This document shows positions 2 through 6,958 of a stretch of DNA of 22,767 bases, piece by piece. The stretch comes from a virus. Each line of letters starts with the position of its first letter. Positions within the stretch are counted from its first letter, which is position 1. A program made the translations under genes and the position numbers. The notes beneath the pieces are model-generated. The model had not been told where the DNA came from and did no database searches. It saw only the letters and a program-made list of their open reading frames with translations. The stretch covers positions 1 to 22,767 of IMG/VR virus record IMGVR_UViG_3300025137_000322. One strand, written 5' to 3'.

Positions 2-3000
2 AATGGAGGTTTAATTAATTTATACAATGAAGCAGGAACTAGAAATGTTGTTGTAAGGGGTTATGGTAATTCATACTTTAATGGAGGTAACTTTGGTATA
101 GGAACAACTACACCAACAGAAAAACTACAAGTAGAAGGTAATATAAGTGCAAGTGGAACAGGTTCATTTGAAAATATAGTTATAACATCTAATGATGCAA
201 ATATTGTATCTGGAAGTGCATTTAGAGTATCAAAAGGAGCATCACCTATTGGAAATATTCGTTATGACACAGTAGTAATAGAGGCTAACGATGTAGCTAC
301 TATAAGAATTGGTGAATCAGACGGTACTGTTTCGAGTATAATGTCTGGTGATTCTAATATGAGGATTAATTCAACTCACCCTATGAAATTTTTCACAGCA
401 GGATCAACAACTGGTGAAGCTCATGGAGGTCAAGGTGGTACTTTAGCTTTAACTTTAGATAATTCTCAAGACGCAACTTTTGCGGGTAATGTATTAATAG
501 CAGATAACAAAAATTTAGATTTTGGCGCAGCAACTGATTTTAGAATAGTACACAATTCAGGCACAAATGTAAATCATATATCTTCAAAATTAGATAGACA
601 ACTATCTCTTAATGCAAACATCATAAACTTTACTAATCAGGCTAATGACGATACTGTTGTGAGAGTAAGTGGATCTAAAGTTGGTATAGGAACAACTGCA
701 CCAACAGAAAAATTACAAGTAGAAGGTAATATAAGTGCAAGTGGAAATGTAGAAGCCACTTCATTTACAGGTTCTCTTTCGGGTACAGTTACAGGTAATA
801 TTATAGGTAATGCTACAGGTTTAACAGGCACACCTGATATTGTTGTAGGATCATTAACAGCTACATCTATAACATCATCAATTGTAACATCATCAATATT
901 ATTCACAGAAGGATCAAATATATTTGGTGATGTTACATCTGATTTTGAAGACACTCATACATTTAATGGTCATATAACAGCCTCGGGTAATATAAGTGCA
1001 AGTGGAAATTTATATGCTCAAAAATATTATATACACTCAACAAAAGAGACATACATAGGTTCAAGTGATAGTGGTGATGATTTACTACTTGAAGCAGTTG
1101 ACGATATAAGAATTAGACCAACTGATGATGTACTTCTTTATGGTAATGATGATACTATTTATACACATTTTGATGGTGCTAATAAAAGAGTCGGTATAGG
1201 AACATCTATACCAACAAAAAAATTACATGTATCGGGAGCCATAAGTGCAAGTATGCATTCTGCAATTAGAACTTTAGATCATGGAGAAACTTTACCTCAG
1301 TTATTAATTGAAGGAAATATGGGTGGATTTACTCCAGCATTAGGTACTGCTATAGAATTAAGATCTAATATAGATTATAGAGGAAGAGGAATCCATATGA
1401 CTACAGCTACAGGTTCTGAAGGTGAAGAATGGTTTGCTGGTGTTCCTTATACAGGGGGAGGATATCAAATAGGATATGATGGTTCAAATGGATTTCCTTA
1501 CTATAAAGCTAGTAGTTCTCTCTTTATCAATGAATCTGGAAATGTTGGTGTAGGAACAGTTAATCAAGGTAGAAAATTAGATGTAGAGGGTACATTTAGA
1601 GCCACAGGAAACACAGATTTTTTATCAAATGTATCTTTTAGCCAATCAGCTGATGGTGGTGTTGGTGGGTTTGGTTCTATATTAGAAAAACCATCTGCTG
1701 CTGTTCATACATTAAGGTTTGATTCTAATAGATTTAGATTTTGGGCTGGTGGTAATGAAAGATTAACTTTAGTATCAGCTTCAGGTAATATTGGTATAGG
1801 ACAAAGTGATCCAAGTACAAAATTACACATTGGAGATGGTGGTACAGGTACAGTAGATTCAGCATATTCTTTAGCTATTGAAGGTGATGGTATTGATGGA
1901 GTACATATACTTACTGCTAATGATCAACAAGGTAGAATAGTCTTTGGAGATGCTCAAGATAATGATATAGGTCAAGTAAGATACGATCATTCTGATAATA
2001 GTATGACATTTAGAGTTAATACATCTGATGCAATGACTATTACTGGTTCTACAGGTAACGTTGGTATAGGAACAACCACACCATTAACACCACTTCATGT
2101 TAATGCTGGTAGTAATAACCAAAAAGTAGCTACTTTTACAGGTAATAATACTACTAGAGGATTAGAAATAACTACTTATCAAGAATCAAACCACGACGCC
2201 GGAGTAATTTTAGATGCAGTTGATGCTTCTCATGGAACTTTAAAATTCCAAACTAGCACAGATGATGCTATGATAATTACTAAAAATCAAAAAGTTGGTA
2301 TCGGAAATATGACACCACCAGAAGTGTTAACAGTTACAGGTAACATAAGTGCAAGTGGTGAAGTAAATGTTAATGTAACTGATGCATTATTTTCATCTAA
2401 AATTACCATAGGAGGAGACGCATATTCAACAGGTGCATTTAAAGTTGGTTCAGCAGCTACCAATGTTGGTAAGATGACAAATACAAATGGAGTACTTACT
2501 TTAACAGCGGAAGATAATAGAGACATACAATTTGGTGATACTTCAACAACAGCATCAATATATATTGATAATTCAGCTGAAAAGGTTGGTATAGGAACAA
2601 AAACACCAGGAGAAAAATTAGAAGTAGTAGGTAATATCAGAGCAAATGTATCTAATGCAGGAGGGTTTATGATTACTGGTAACGCTGCAAGTGGTTTAGT
2701 TAGAAGTAATGCTACTGGAGTTGCATTAAGAACAAATACTACTGATCGATTAATTATAAATTCAGATGGTGATGTTGGTATAGGAACAGGGACAGAACCA
2801 CCAGAAAAATTAACAGTTGAAGGTAATATAAGTTCAAGTGGAAATGCAATAATAAAAGGCAACATAACAGCCTCAAGTAATGCAGGTATTGCAGGAGCAT
2901 TAGGAGTAGGTGTATCAAGTCATCATGCTAGTTTTGGATTTTATAATCAAAACACAGCTTATTTCAATGGACAAGTTACAGTAAATGATAGCTTAGCTAT

Positions 3001-5293
3001 TGATGCAGGTAGTGTAAGTGTAAGCGGACCTGGTCACATAACAGCCTCAGGTAATATAAGTGCAAGTGGAAATGTTATTGCAAGTGGTAATATACTTTTA
3101 GATGAAAATGGTTATTTACAACTTAATAACACAAATAATAATAATCCATCCTTTATAGGAAACCAAGGTTCAAATGCTACTCAAATATCTTTTATGTTAG
3201 GTAGTCATGGTAATGCAAATGCAAGATTTAAAATTGAAGATAGTAAAATATCAACATTAAAAGGAGCAGATTTATTTGTTTCGGGAGCATTAGAAGTAGA
3301 ATCACACACAACAGCCTCAGGCAATATAAGTGCAAGTGGAGAAGTATATGGTCAAAAGTTTGGAGCAGGTAGTACAAATCTTTTAGATTTTTCAACAACT
3401 AACTCTATAATATTTAGAACAAATAACTCTAATAGATTAAGATTTGACCAAAGTCAATTTTATCCTGTTACTAATAATGGTGTTTCTTTAGGTACAGCAA
3501 CTAATAGTTTTTCAGATTTATTTTTAGCAACAGGCGCTGTTATTAACTTTCATAATGGTGATGTTACATTAACACATAGTAGTAATACTTTAACTTTAGG
3601 TGGTGGAACTTTTGTCGCAGGTGATGTAAGTGTAACTAACATAACATCCTCAGGTAATATAAGTTCAAGTGGAACAGGTGAAAATTTCTTTAATGGTGAT
3701 TTTAAATTTGATGGCGATACAACTATCTCAACAGTTGGTTCTAGTGATGATATATCTATTAATCCTGCGGCAGAGTTAAATTTAGGAACGTCAAACGCTG
3801 ATGTAGTACAAATAGGAAGACAATCAAGTGCAGTACCTATTAAAATATTTGCCGGATCTTCGACCCCCACTTTTGAAGCAAAATCAGGCCATATAACAGC
3901 CTCAGGTAATATAAGTTCAAGTGGTACTGTACATACTAAATTTTTACAACTACCACAGGCAGGTGCTGGAGGAACAGGTGATAGTTCTATTCATTTTGGA
4001 TCACCTGGTGGGAATAATGGACACATTTATGATGATGGACAGTTTCGTTTAGGTTATAATGATAGTGATAATATATCACTGGCTGATGGCTCAACTACAA
4101 TTAGTTCAATAAAAGCTAAATTTAATGGTAATATTACAGCCTCAGGAACTATAAGTGCAAGTAAAGATATATTAACATCAGGAAGCTTCAGAACTAATGC
4201 TGATGTAAGTGCGAGTGGTGATGGTACAAATGAAGGTCGTATATTTGCAGGACAATTTTATGCACATCAAGCATATAGATTAAATGATGCTAGTGGAACA
4301 TCTAGACATGTTCTTACTAATGGATCTGATGATTTAACTATTGAAATAGGTAACGCAAATATGACAAGTGGGGTGTCATTAGTAGGAAATGTAACAGCCT
4401 CAAATAATATAAGTGCAAGTGGTACTATTTTTACTAATAAAATAGAAGGTCATACTTCATTAGCTTTAGGAGACCCAGATGGTAATTCAAATGCATCAAG
4501 AGTTATAATAAACCAATCTGATACTTCAGTTTCAGTTTTTAATGCTGACCTAGTTGTAGGCCAAACAGGTGGTGGAGAAAAAGATTTAAATGTAACAGGA
4601 ACAGGTTCATTTGGACATATTTTAATGGCCGAACAAACTAGAATATCATTTGATAATGAATCATCTAATGATCAATTTATTACAGGTACAGATCATAATA
4701 TCACAATAGATGGAGATAATAATGTTAATTTAGAAGCGGATGTAGGAGTAAATTTAAATACACCATTAGTAACAGCAACAGGTAATATAAGTGCAAGTGG
4801 AGACCATACAGCTCTTAATTTGACAGCTACAGGTTCTAATAATCTTCTTAACACAAGTGCAAGTGGAAATCTTATAGGTAATAGATTTTTTAAAAAATCA
4901 TCAACAGCTGATTATTTTCTAGCACAAGGTGATATTATATATACTGGAGGGGGATCTACTACAAAAGGAGATATTGTTTATATGAATACTTCTGGTAACT
5001 GGGCAAGTGCTAGAGCAGACGCAACAAGTACATCAACTAGTTTATTAGGAATTGCATTAGGAACAGATCCTGATGTTAATGGTGTATTATTAAGAGGTAC
5101 AGTAACGTTAGACCATGATGTAGCAAATAATCAAGGTGTACCATTGTATATATCAACTTCTGCCGCTGGACAAGCTACTGCAACTATCCCATCCGCAGAC
5201 GGACATATTGTAAGAATTATAGGATATAATTTAGGTGATAATGATGAGATATGGTTTAATCCAGATAATACATTTGTAGAAATAAATGCATAA
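2..5293 (+). CDS. Giant repetitive tail fibre / receptor-binding protein (5' end outside window)
   Basis: The frame is open from base 2 to the TAA at 5291-5293 (1763 codons), so the gene enters from the left edge; the ATG at 341 is internal, since a repeat of the same family is already encoded at 91-158. The left half carries nine units of the form [NKRD]-VGIGT-x(2)-P-x-EKL-x-V-x-GNISASG, near bases 93, 681, 1195, 1546, 1789, 2059, 2296, 2587 and 2773. This is the beta-helix style common in phage fibres and often seen ahead of S74 chaperone domains. The right half carries about eight GHITASGNISASG-type units. The last roughly 110 residues (from KGDIVYMNTSG to NPDNTFVEINA) read as a compact terminal domain without an S74-like region. 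The likely role is an elongated trimeric fibre or spike contacting the host surface. Whether it sits on tail or head is not shown by sequence; its place beside the tail genes favours the tail. Confidence 0.75.
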   Translation, partial: NGGLINLYNEAGTRNVVVRGYGNSYFNGGNFGIGTTTPTEKLQVEGNISASGTGSFENIVITSNDANIVSGSAFRVSKGASPIGNIRYDTVVIEANDVATIRIGESDGTVSSIMSGDSNMRINSTHPMKFFTAGSTTGEAHGGQGGTLALTLDNSQDATFAGNVLIADNKNLDFGAATDFRIVHNSGTNVNHISSKLDRQLSLNANIINFTNQANDDTVVRVSGSKVGIGTTAPTEKLQVEGNISASGNVEATSFTGSLSGTVTGNIIGNATGLTGTPDIVVGSLTATSITSSIVTSSILFTEGSNIFGDVTSDFEDTHTFNGHITASGNISASGNLYAQKYYIHSTKETYIGSSDSGDDLLLEAVDDIRIRPTDDVLLYGNDDTIYTHFDGANKRVGIGTSIPTKKLHVSGAISASMHSAIRTLDHGETLPQLLIEGNMGGFTPALGTAIELRSNIDYRGRGIHMTTATGSEGEEWFAGVPYTGGGYQIGYDGSNGFPYYKASSSLFINESGNVGVGTVNQGRKLDVEGTFRATGNTDFLSNVSFSQSADGGVGGFGSILEKPSAAVHTLRFDSNRFRFWAGGNERLTLVSASGNIGIGQSDPSTKLHIGDGGTGTVDSAYSLAIEGDGIDGVHILTANDQQGRIVFGDAQDNDIGQVRYDHSDNSMTFRVNTSDAMTITGSTGNVGIGTTTPLTPLHVNAGSNNQKVATFTGNNTTRGLEITTYQESNHDAGVILDAVDASHGTLKFQTSTDDAMIITKNQKVGIGNMTPPEVLTVTGNISASGEVNVNVTDALFSSKITIGGDAYSTGAFKVGSAATNVGKMTNTNGVLTLTAEDNRDIQFGDTSTTASIYIDNSAEKVGIGTKTPGEKLEVVGNIRANVSNAGGFMITGNAASGLVRSNATGVALRTNTTDRLIINSDGDVGIGTGTEPPEKLTVEGNISSSGNAIIKGNITASSNAGIAGALGVGVSSHHASFGFYNQNTAYFNGQVTVNDSLAIDAGSVSVSGPGHITASGNISASGNVIASGNILLDENGYLQLNNTNNNNPSFIGNQGSNATQISFMLGSHGNANARFKIEDSKISTLKGADLFVSGALEVESHTTASGNISASGEVYGQKFGAGSTNLLDFSTTNSIIFRTNNSNRLRFDQSQFYPVTNNGVSLGTATNSFSDLFLATGAVINFHNGDVTLTHSSNTLTLGGGTFVAGDVSVTNITSSGNISSSGTGENFFNGDFKFDGDTTISTVGSSDDISINPAAELNLGTSNADVVQIGRQSSAVPIKIFAGSSTPTFEAKSGHITASGNISSSGTVHTKFLQLPQAGAGGTGDSSIHFGSPGGNNGHIYDDGQFRLGYNDSDNISLADGSTTISSIKAKFNGNITASGTISASKDILTSGSFRTNADVSASGDGTNEGRIFAGQFYAHQAYRLNDASGTSRHVLTNGSDDLTIEIGNANMTSGVSLVGNVTASNNISASGTIFTNKIEGHTSLALGDPDGNSNASRVIINQSDTSVSVFNADLVVGQTGGGEKDLNVTGTGSFGHILMAEQTRISFDNESSNDQFITGTDHNITIDGDNNVNLEADVGVNLNTPLVTATGNISASGDHTALNLTATGSNNLLNTSASGNLIGNRFFKKSSTADYFLAQGDIIYTGGGSTTKGDIVYMNTSGNWASARADATSTSTSLLGIALGTDPDVNGVLLRGTVTLDHDVANNQGVPLYISTSAAGQATATIPSADGHIVRIIGYNLGDNDEIWFNPDNTFVEINA
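93..158 (+). repeat. 66-bp direct repeat, copy 1 (fibre gene)
   Basis: This copy matches 681-746 at 64 of 66 positions by eye and lies 588 bases from it in the same reading frame. It encodes a complete VGIGTT...EKLQVEGNISASG unit. The near identity at the DNA level suggests recent duplication or gene conversion. Confidence 0.85.
681..746 (+). repeat. 66-bp direct repeat, copy 2 (fibre gene)
   Basis: Partner of 93-158, with only two substitutions, one silent and one Thr to Ala. Other units in the gene are much more diverged. Confidence 0.85.
966..4873 (+). repeat. Array of GGTAATATAAGTGCAAGTGG-type repeats inside the fibre gene
   Basis: A roughly 21-base unit encoding GNISASG recurs at 986, 2339, 2822, 3050, 3320, 3653, 3905 and 4781, with outlying copies at 137 and 725. 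Degenerate copies lie near 1230, 4147, 4410 and 4855. Several copies are preceded by ACAGCCTCAGG, giving an ITASGNISASG module. Spacing is irregular (about 230-500 bases), so the units punctuate longer variable segments rather than forming a strict tandem array. Confidence 0.8.
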
Positions 5294-5907
5294 TGAGTTA
5301 CACAGATAAAACATTAACATTCAAATCAGACAAGATATACTATACAGACACATCTTTTGGAGGAGATTTTGAAGTTATGATGGATTGGGAAGACCCCCTA
5401 ATGTCAGCTTCAGCAGCTTACGTGTGTGGAAACGGAGGTGACATTTTAGAAATAGGATTTGGAATGGGAATATCAGCAGGTTATATGCATTCTCATTCAA
5501 TTTCAACACACACCATAATAGAAAATCATCCTGACATAATACCCAAGGCTCAGGCGTGGGCTTCAAATAAATCTAATGTAACTATCATAACAGGTAGTTG
5601 GTATGATATTAAAGATTCTTTGTCAACATACGATGGTATATTTTATGATACTTTTGGTGATCAAAATATGAAAAATTTTAGTTCATCTTTAAGTGCTTTA
5701 ACAAAACTAAATACTAAAGTAACTTGGTGGAATAATGAAACTAAACTTGAACTTATATCCCCTGGTAGATTATTATTTGAAAATATGTTACCTGAAACTA
5801 ATTATTATAATATACCTAATGTAACTTATCAAGCTATGACTGTTGATCCACCAACAAACAGCTATTTCAATAGTACAACTTACTATTTACCTAAAAAACA
5901 GTTTTAA
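5293..5907 (+). CDS. SAM-dependent methyltransferase of the guanidinoacetate/arginine (GAMT/RMT2-like) type
   Basis: A 204-residue class I methyltransferase. The SAM motif I is DILEIGFGMGISAG (50-63); the acidic end of strand 2 is IIEN with E77; the motif after strand 4 is YDGIFYDTFGD (113-123). These match the GAMT/RMT2 branch: WE-x-P (W32-E33-P35), LEIGFGM and the YDT triplet are its hallmarks. In GAMT the glutamate of WE-x-P and the aspartate of YDT bind the guanidino group, and here E33 and D119 are both present. Human GAMT is 236 residues, so this is slightly short but complete. The substrate is unknown; a guanidino group (small molecule or protein arginine) is the best inference. The ATG shares its A with the fibre stop (TAATG), implying translational coupling, and the next gene starts directly after its stop. 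Membership of the methyltransferase class is near certain; the branch is likely. Confidence 0.85.
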   Translation: MSYTDKTLTFKSDKIYYTDTSFGGDFEVMMDWEDPLMSASAAYVCGNGGDILEIGFGMGISAGYMHSHSISTHTIIENHPDIIPKAQAWASNKSNVTIITGSWYDIKDSLSTYDGIFYDTFGDQNMKNFSSSLSALTKLNTKVTWWNNETKLELISPGRLLFENMLPETNYYNIPNVTYQAMTVDPPTNSYFNSTTYYLPKKQF

Positions 5908-6594
5908 ATGCCAACGTTAGCATCAAATAGAAAAGGATTCATAACAGGAGCAAGTGCTAGTGATTATGAAACCGCACTTGTTCAATCTACTGGTACAGCT
6001 ACTGATAGTGCTACAGGTAATCAAACAGCTTGTATTCAATATTTTAAATCATCAGGAAGAGGTGGTGGTACATTTAGATTTATAAGAACATTTATACATT
6101 TTGACACATCAGGTATATCAGGTGCTTCTAGTATTTCTCTTCAATTAACTTCTGTTGCTGGTAATGCTGGTAATGGTCTTAATAATGTAACAGCAGTAAA
6201 ACATACTGCTGGTACTAGTAATGGTGGTGAGCTTGCTAATGCTGATTTTAATAATGTAGATAAATCCACTACCTATTCTGCCGCAACAGCTTATGCATCA
6301 AGTGGAACAGTTGAATTTACTTTAAATGCAGCAGCCGCTACTCAAATTAATAATAACAATGATTTTAATATAGCATTACTTTTATCTGCTGATGTAGCGG
6401 GTGAAGAAGAAGACCCATTAGAAGAAGATGGTGATATAAGTAATGGTATAGCTTTTAGTAGTGCTATAAATTTAGTATACACAGCAGCTGCTGCTGCAGC
6501 CTATGATCATAACGTAATAGGAATAACACAAGGTAATATTAAAAAAGTAAATTTAATAGCTACTGCAAATATAGAAAAAGTAATAGGAGTATAA
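5908..6594 (+). CDS. Adhesin-like structural protein of the fibre operon
   Basis: A 228-residue protein starting immediately after the methyltransferase stop. Residues 57-70 (RFIRTFIHFDTSGI) followed by SSISLQL resemble the core of DNRLRE-type beta-sandwich modules found in surface and carbohydrate-associated proteins. An acidic patch (GEEEDPLEEDGD, 165-176) and an alanine run (193-198) lead to a C-terminal pair of short repeats: VIGITQGNIKKVNLI (203-217) and ATANIEKVIGV (218-228). Such ANI-KV-GV repeats are common at the ends of phage structural proteins. No signal peptide or transmembrane segment is seen. It is probably a virion decoration or fibre-associated protein; an exact role cannot be assigned. 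Confidence 0.55.
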   Translation: MPTLASNRKGFITGASASDYETALVQSTGTATDSATGNQTACIQYFKSSGRGGGTFRFIRTFIHFDTSGISGASSISLQLTSVAGNAGNGLNNVTAVKHTAGTSNGGELANADFNNVDKSTTYSAATAYASSGTVEFTLNAAAATQINNNNDFNIALLLSADVAGEEEDPLEEDGDISNGIAFSSAINLVYTAAAAAAYDHNVIGITQGNIKKVNLIATANIEKVIGV

Positions 6595-6667: not shown

Positions 6668-6958
6668 ATGGCAGTAGAACAAAAAATACCAACACCAACA
6701 GATATTAAAAAAGGACCAGTTAAATTTACAACTGAAGAAATTCAAAATTTAAAAGATCTTCAATCAAAAGTAAATCAAACAACAATTCAATTTGGTCAAT
6801 TAAATATTAATAAAATTAAATTAGAAGAAGCTGAAATTTTATTAAAAAATCAATTATCTGAATTAGAAAAAGAAGAAGTTAAAATAGCAAAATCTTTATC
6901 AGATAAATATGGTAGAGGATCTCTTGATATAGAAACGGGAACTTTTACTCCAGCATAA
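6668..6958 (+). CDS. Small coiled-coil protein, unknown function
   Basis: A 96-residue protein, highly charged, dominated by Lys, Glu, Gln, Leu and Ile. Residues about 18-80 show heptad-like spacing (NLKDLQSKVNQ, KIKLEEAEILLKNQLSEL, EKEEVKIAKSL), predicting a long alpha-helical coiled coil. The ending KYGRGSLDIETGTFTPA is glycine-containing and probably extended. It lies alone between the fibre block and the sheath gene, behind the motif-B element. Without cysteines, membrane segments or catalytic motifs, it could be a small structural or chaperone protein. I do not recognise a named family. Confidence 0.6.
   Translation: MAVEQKIPTPTDIKKGPVKFTTEEIQNLKDLQSKVNQTTIQFGQLNINKIKLEEAEILLKNQLSELEKEEVKIAKSLSDKYGRGSLDIETGTFTPA

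Follow-up and report, generated by a model that had tools for sequence, protein, structure and literature searches.

A putative phage arginine methyltransferase of the GAMT/RMT2 type and its candidate target in a CBM96-like tail tip protein

GAMT, which makes creatine, methylates a substituted guanidino nitrogen, and RMT2, known as a eukaryotic enzyme acting on a ribosomal protein, methylates protein arginine at the delta nitrogen. RMT2 (yeast, type IV), with its N-delta activity on protein arginine, presumably has a GAMT-type domain in common with the viral enzyme described here. In GAMT the proton acceptor is Asp134 (PMC12471008). Among glycan-binding modules, the founding CBM96 binds alginate via basic residues (Lys and Arg), and its R36E substitution abolishes alginate binding (PMC9971899). 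Methylation of phage proteins was first reported only in 2026, when Lys and Arg methylation of structural proteins, including fibres, was observed by mass spectrometry in Cellulophaga phages; these phages encode no methyltransferase, and the authors credit host enzymes (PMC13288928). In the Cellulophaga phages the methylated virion proteins are thus observed and a phage enzyme is missing, whereas the locus analyzed here offers a phage methyltransferase gene together with a candidate residue. A search of the literature (open-licence papers) found no phage-encoded protein arginine methyltransferase.

The window (the whole 22,767-base virus record) holds a contractile-tail module with matches to sheath, tube and baseplate-hub proteins. 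Its relevant features are collected in Table 1. In what follows, MT designates the GAMT-like methyltransferase of ORF 5293-5907 and its viral homologues, and the tip protein is the ~225-aa CBM96-like product encoded downstream; R51 and R60 are residue numbers of the window's tip protein, and L-numbers denote the loci compared. The first-pass annotation had described an enzyme gene locked between a fibre gene and an adhesin-like gene, and the reading frames bear this out: the TAA of the fibre occupies 5291-5293 and shares one base with the ATG of MT (TAATG), and the following ORF begins at 5908 with a gap of 0.

Table 1. Features of the window that bear on the proposed modification of the tip protein
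Feature	Position	Strand	Basis or remark
Tail fibre gene, extending 5' beyond the record	2..5293	+	repeats of GNISASG / VGIGTTTPTEKL type
Fibre C-terminal domain, ~last 70 aa, conserved 'type A' end	5081-5290	+	shared by fibres that precede MT or CBM genes
GAMT-like SAM-dependent methyltransferase (MT), 204 aa	5293..5907	+	fibre stop overlaps start, TAATG
E33 codon (WEDP)	5389..5391	+	aligned with WETP of GAMT, whose Glu binds the guanidino group
SAM-binding motif I, D50-G59 (DILEIGFGMG)	5440..5469	+	sequence
D119 codon (YDT)	5647..5649	+	aligns with catalytic Asp134 of GAMT (PMC12471008)
CBM96-like glycan-binding tip protein, 228 aa	5908..6594	+	AlphaFold2, Foldseek, PF24517 in relatives; abuts MT stop
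R51 codon, proposed methylation site in loop 49-54 (SGRGGG)	6058..6060	+	R51-MT covariation

The pairing of fibre and MT, proposed originally from this one contig, recurs in the same three-gene order in other phage contigs, two scans of viral contigs having returned 335 and 441 MT-encoding stretches. In nearly all of the viral loci fetched, a fibre gene with one of two C-terminal types (A or B) is followed by MT and then by the ~225-aa protein. The tip gene lies directly after MT in 157 phage loci (overlapping contigs being counted more than once), and the other 7 MT loci comprise 2 bacterial ones, the pair L082 and L083, and 3 in which the contig ends, one of these still encoding part of the tip protein; where the DNA downstream of a phage MT can be read, the tip protein follows in all but two loci. 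L082 (7971-8555) and L083 (2466-3047) represent a deep MT clade, each lying beside a fibre gene and one of them in a 634-kb phage; their records contain no CBM96-like tip protein in a search with alignment A4 that detected the positive controls, and the adjacent fibres contain no R-G-G. MT can exist, then, without the tip protein. Next to a further 46 fibre ends, again of types A and B, there is no MT and no CBM96-like gene, which points to other tip genes having been swapped in there. The contig of one cassette has been binned with a Flavobacteriales MAG.

Among the 50,697 phage records of INPHARED the single match is the 634-kb uncultured phage LR745206.1. Bacterial GAMT-like genes are rare, at ~1% of the genomes sampled from two phyla. 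Two of the bacterial genes (L357 and L358) have Q for the E and H for the D, a joint change that fits two acids working as a pair and suggests a different substrate. A third, in a Thiothrix genome (L165, 3815-7939), lies among GNAT-like, PLP-enzyme-like and aminotransferase-like genes, a neighbourhood that is possibly a small biosynthetic cluster.

MT is related to GAMT both by sequence and by predicted fold. In the PDB, phmmer matches of MT are GAMT entries only, the best being human GAMT (E = 2.9e-14) with WEDP aligned to WETP and YDT to YDT, and a profile of 48 viral homologues matches GAMT with E = 1.1e-21; judged from these alignments, the similarity is far beyond chance. The AlphaFold2 model of MT (mean pLDDT 88.9) has GAMT as its nearest fold by Foldseek, where the top five matches are GAMT chains (5.9e-14 to 8.5e-13) and the next family, the spermidine synthases, follows at 8.5e-7. 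The TM score of the model against GAMT is 0.69-0.78 over the query with an rmsd of ~5 A, a value which indicates that the C-terminal part of MT differs from GAMT. The active site is intact: E33, E53, G55, G57, E77, W103 and D119 are invariant where covered among 142 distinct viral sequences, and by alignment with GAMT both E33 and D119 would be placed in the guanidino pocket. The SAM motif and the pair of acids that had been singled out as GAMT-like in the initial reading of the window are thereby upheld, as is the placement in a GAMT-like family. In the tree the viral MTs form a single group (support 100/100) apart from the bacterial rows and from human GAMT, the latter represented by a sequence that matches the PDB alignment over residues 40-174.

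MT nevertheless differs from GAMT in several respects. Sequence, fold, SAM motif, the Glu of WE(T/D)P and the catalytic Asp of YDT are common to MT and GAMT (PDB 3orh, 1xcj, 1khh; PMC12471008), whereas the viral clade is separate, has a shorter N-terminus, is encoded in a phage tail operon and has a partner protein whose arginine depends on MT. In addition, a stretch of ~27 residues, corresponding to the GAMT C-terminal helix region between the last strands, is missing from the viral MTs in the alignment, which suggests a more open site; this helical stretch and the substrate-carboxylate site, which together mark GAMT proper, are not found in the viral enzymes. Pfam returned only sub-threshold generic methyltransferase matches for MT, PHROGs and NCBIfam hold no family for it, and PRMT models gave no match; an identity with PADLOC mad2 was rejected, the weak match covering the SAM-binding region only. 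The MT of the window differs from nearly all of its relatives by an in-frame 48-bp (16-aa) insert at 5737-5793, flanked by a direct repeat, GAAACTAA; the insert falls in a low-confidence loop (154-168), and L033 carries another, different insert at this position.

The tip protein is a beta-sandwich (AlphaFold2, pLDDT 90.3), and the folds closest to its model are a chondroitin-sulfate-binding CBM and an alginate-binding CBM (Foldseek: 8wab, 2.9e-5; 7vbo, 7.5e-4). PF24517 (CBM96) matches 7 of 49 tip proteins (best 1.2e-4) and does not match the window's own member; a PDB profile search with the tip protein produced chance antibody matches only. The protein is CBM96-like, weakly by sequence and clearly by fold. 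The adhesin-like label earlier given to the downstream gene is refined by Foldseek and PF24517 to a CBM96-like domain, an identity which had been missed. With CBM96 (DNRLRE; PDB 7vbo, related 8wab) the tip proteins share the fold and, in some members, Pfam CBM96 matches; they differ from it in being remote, in being encoded alone as a phage tail tip and in carrying an R-G-[GSA] loop.

That loop, overlooked by the first-pass annotation, is the candidate site of modification. Two arginines are invariant in the tip alignment: one, R60, belongs to the strand motif R-x-F-x-x-F-D, and the other, R51, to the loop [SGA]-R-G-[GSA], which in the AlphaFold2 model forms the tip of a hairpin between strands 38-48 and 55-66. 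Loci exist in which MT is missing and the fibre abuts the tip gene, and the two arginines behave differently in these MT-less orthologues. With distinct proteins counted and the bacterial neighbour L165 left out, all 135 of 135 MT-linked tips have R51 (the automatic column gives 134, the remaining one being offset by one position and reading GRG), compared with 10/21 MT-less ones. By column, conservation drops from 99% to 48% at R51 and from 96% to 33% at the next glycine, whereas R60 and the five further conserved inner columns all stand at 100% in the MT-less set. Where R51 is missing, the position reads K, P or T or is deleted; examples are K (L169, L179), PKGG (L206, L235) and, in the L310 clade, a shortened loop. 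Lysine occurs at this site only where MT is absent, which fits a site that needs positive charge either way and arginine for MT. In one further locus (L274, 10711-11404) a CBM96-like tip has SKGG for the R-G motif, and a 115-aa protein of another type stands upstream in place of MT.

Fisher's test on the tree set (127/0 versus 10/11) gives p 2.8e-11, for rows that are related to one another. On a loop-free tree there are ten MT-less lineages and four losses of R51, all on MT-less branches; these branches make up 7.9% of the tree length, and the placement has p ~4e-5 if losses are random along the tree. In an independent-pairs test the differences are almost always in the predicted direction, the pairs being too few for significance. 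The dependence also appears when the R51 motif plays no part in finding the proteins: a DNA pattern covering just R60 and its strand was run against viral contigs, and the motif was found in 32/32 MT-adjacent tips and was absent from 37/45 others, many of them remote proteins. Two more viral-contig scans, on fibre ends, widened the tip sample, and MT-less tip proteins used as queries, again with the R51 motif unused, added few loci. MT was not found elsewhere in 20 MT-less records, which may be fragments, with the same model that finds the positive controls.

Could R51 be conserved for contact with a glycan receptor alone, MT being co-distributed by common ancestry and acting elsewhere? Such a role would be in keeping with the binding of anionic glycans by CBM96 through Lys and Arg (PMC9971899), with the positive charge that some MT-less replacements retain (K in L169, L179 and L274) and with the presence of MT but no tip protein in L082 and L083. 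It is nonetheless improbable, because there are ten separate MT-less lineages and R51 is lost only there, with the other conserved residues intact, and because MT-linked tips less than 50% identical to any other retain R51; L169 (K, MT-less) and L087 (R, MT-linked) are 72% identical. The R-G motif is kept in several MT-less lineages (L168/L176, L191/L244, L198, L318, L220, L204), and since they retain R51, this arginine either is useful even unmethylated or the losses of MT are recent.

The fibre is the other structural protein adjacent to MT, and modification of a fibre arginine rather than of the tip protein would explain why MT always follows a fibre gene, with its start overlapping the fibre stop, and why L082 and L083 retain a fibre partner only. 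In the conserved C-terminal part, to which the comparison was confined since the upstream fibre is too variable, a column test revealed no arginine that depends on MT: type A ends have one near-invariant Arg that is kept equally with or without MT, and in type B ends no Arg is invariant. The fibre was accordingly rejected as substrate, and we regard this alternative as very unlikely. A small ORF before the tail sheath (6668-6958), conserved in related loci, encodes KYG[R/K/A/P/Q]G near its end (YGRGS in the window) and was considered as a second substrate; it was discarded, as in MT phages this position varies freely among R, K, A, P and Q, its arginine showing no dependence on MT.

Two further explanations place the function of MT outside protein methylation. 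The closest characterized enzyme, GAMT, uses guanidinoacetate, and MT might similarly methylate a small guanidino compound in a creatine-type reaction or, during infection, a guanidino group on the surface of the host. This has only a slim chance of being correct, given the tight coupling of MT to tail structural genes in diverse phages, the dependence of R51 on MT and the more open site suggested by the missing C-terminal helix stretch. Phages often encode fibre chaperones between fibre and tip, and a non-catalytic MT fold that docks as an assembly chaperone on the R-G-G loop of the tip would likewise account for the R51 dependence as well as for the position of the gene. However, the SAM-site residues and both acids are invariant over ~140 sequences, which would be needless for a pure chaperone, and this explanation is slighter still.

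The reading preferred here is that MT is a putative phage protein arginine methyltransferase of the GAMT/RMT2 type that modifies R51 of the phage's own tip protein, to which we assign a probability of roughly 0.6. As targets the first-pass annotation had offered arginines of the fibre or adhesin, or else a guanidino metabolite or surface group of the host; covariation of R51 with MT favours the adhesin, while the fibre C-termini offer no MT-dependent arginine and nothing points to the host metabolite or surface group. According to the proposed mechanism, MT would be made from the late tail operon between fibre and CBM96-like tip protein, E33 and D119 would bind the guanidino group of R51 on the exposed R-G-[GSA] hairpin loop, and a methyl group would be transferred to R51 from SAM. 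The predicted product is N-delta-monomethylarginine, by analogy with GAMT, whose target is the substituted guanidino nitrogen, and with RMT2, which acts at the delta nitrogen of protein arginine. The candidate site resembles that of classical PRMTs (RGG/GAR) in its R-G-[GSA] sequence; MT is of a different family, and the site is a single Arg on a folded hairpin, unlike the disordered repeats of PRMT substrates. A mark in this receptor-binding domain would be expected to tune glycan recognition or the assembly of the tip on the fibre.

In this proposal a phage gene and its single target arginine are put forward together, in hundreds of contigs and on a likely host-recognition protein. That widespread phages carry a dedicated arginine methyltransferase marking one tip loop, probably as N-delta-methylarginine, and that this is the first phage-encoded one with a matching virion substrate, seems to us slightly better than an even bet. 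If true, this kind of phage protein modification would be new, and arginine methylation could join the means by which a phage adjusts its binding to receptors.
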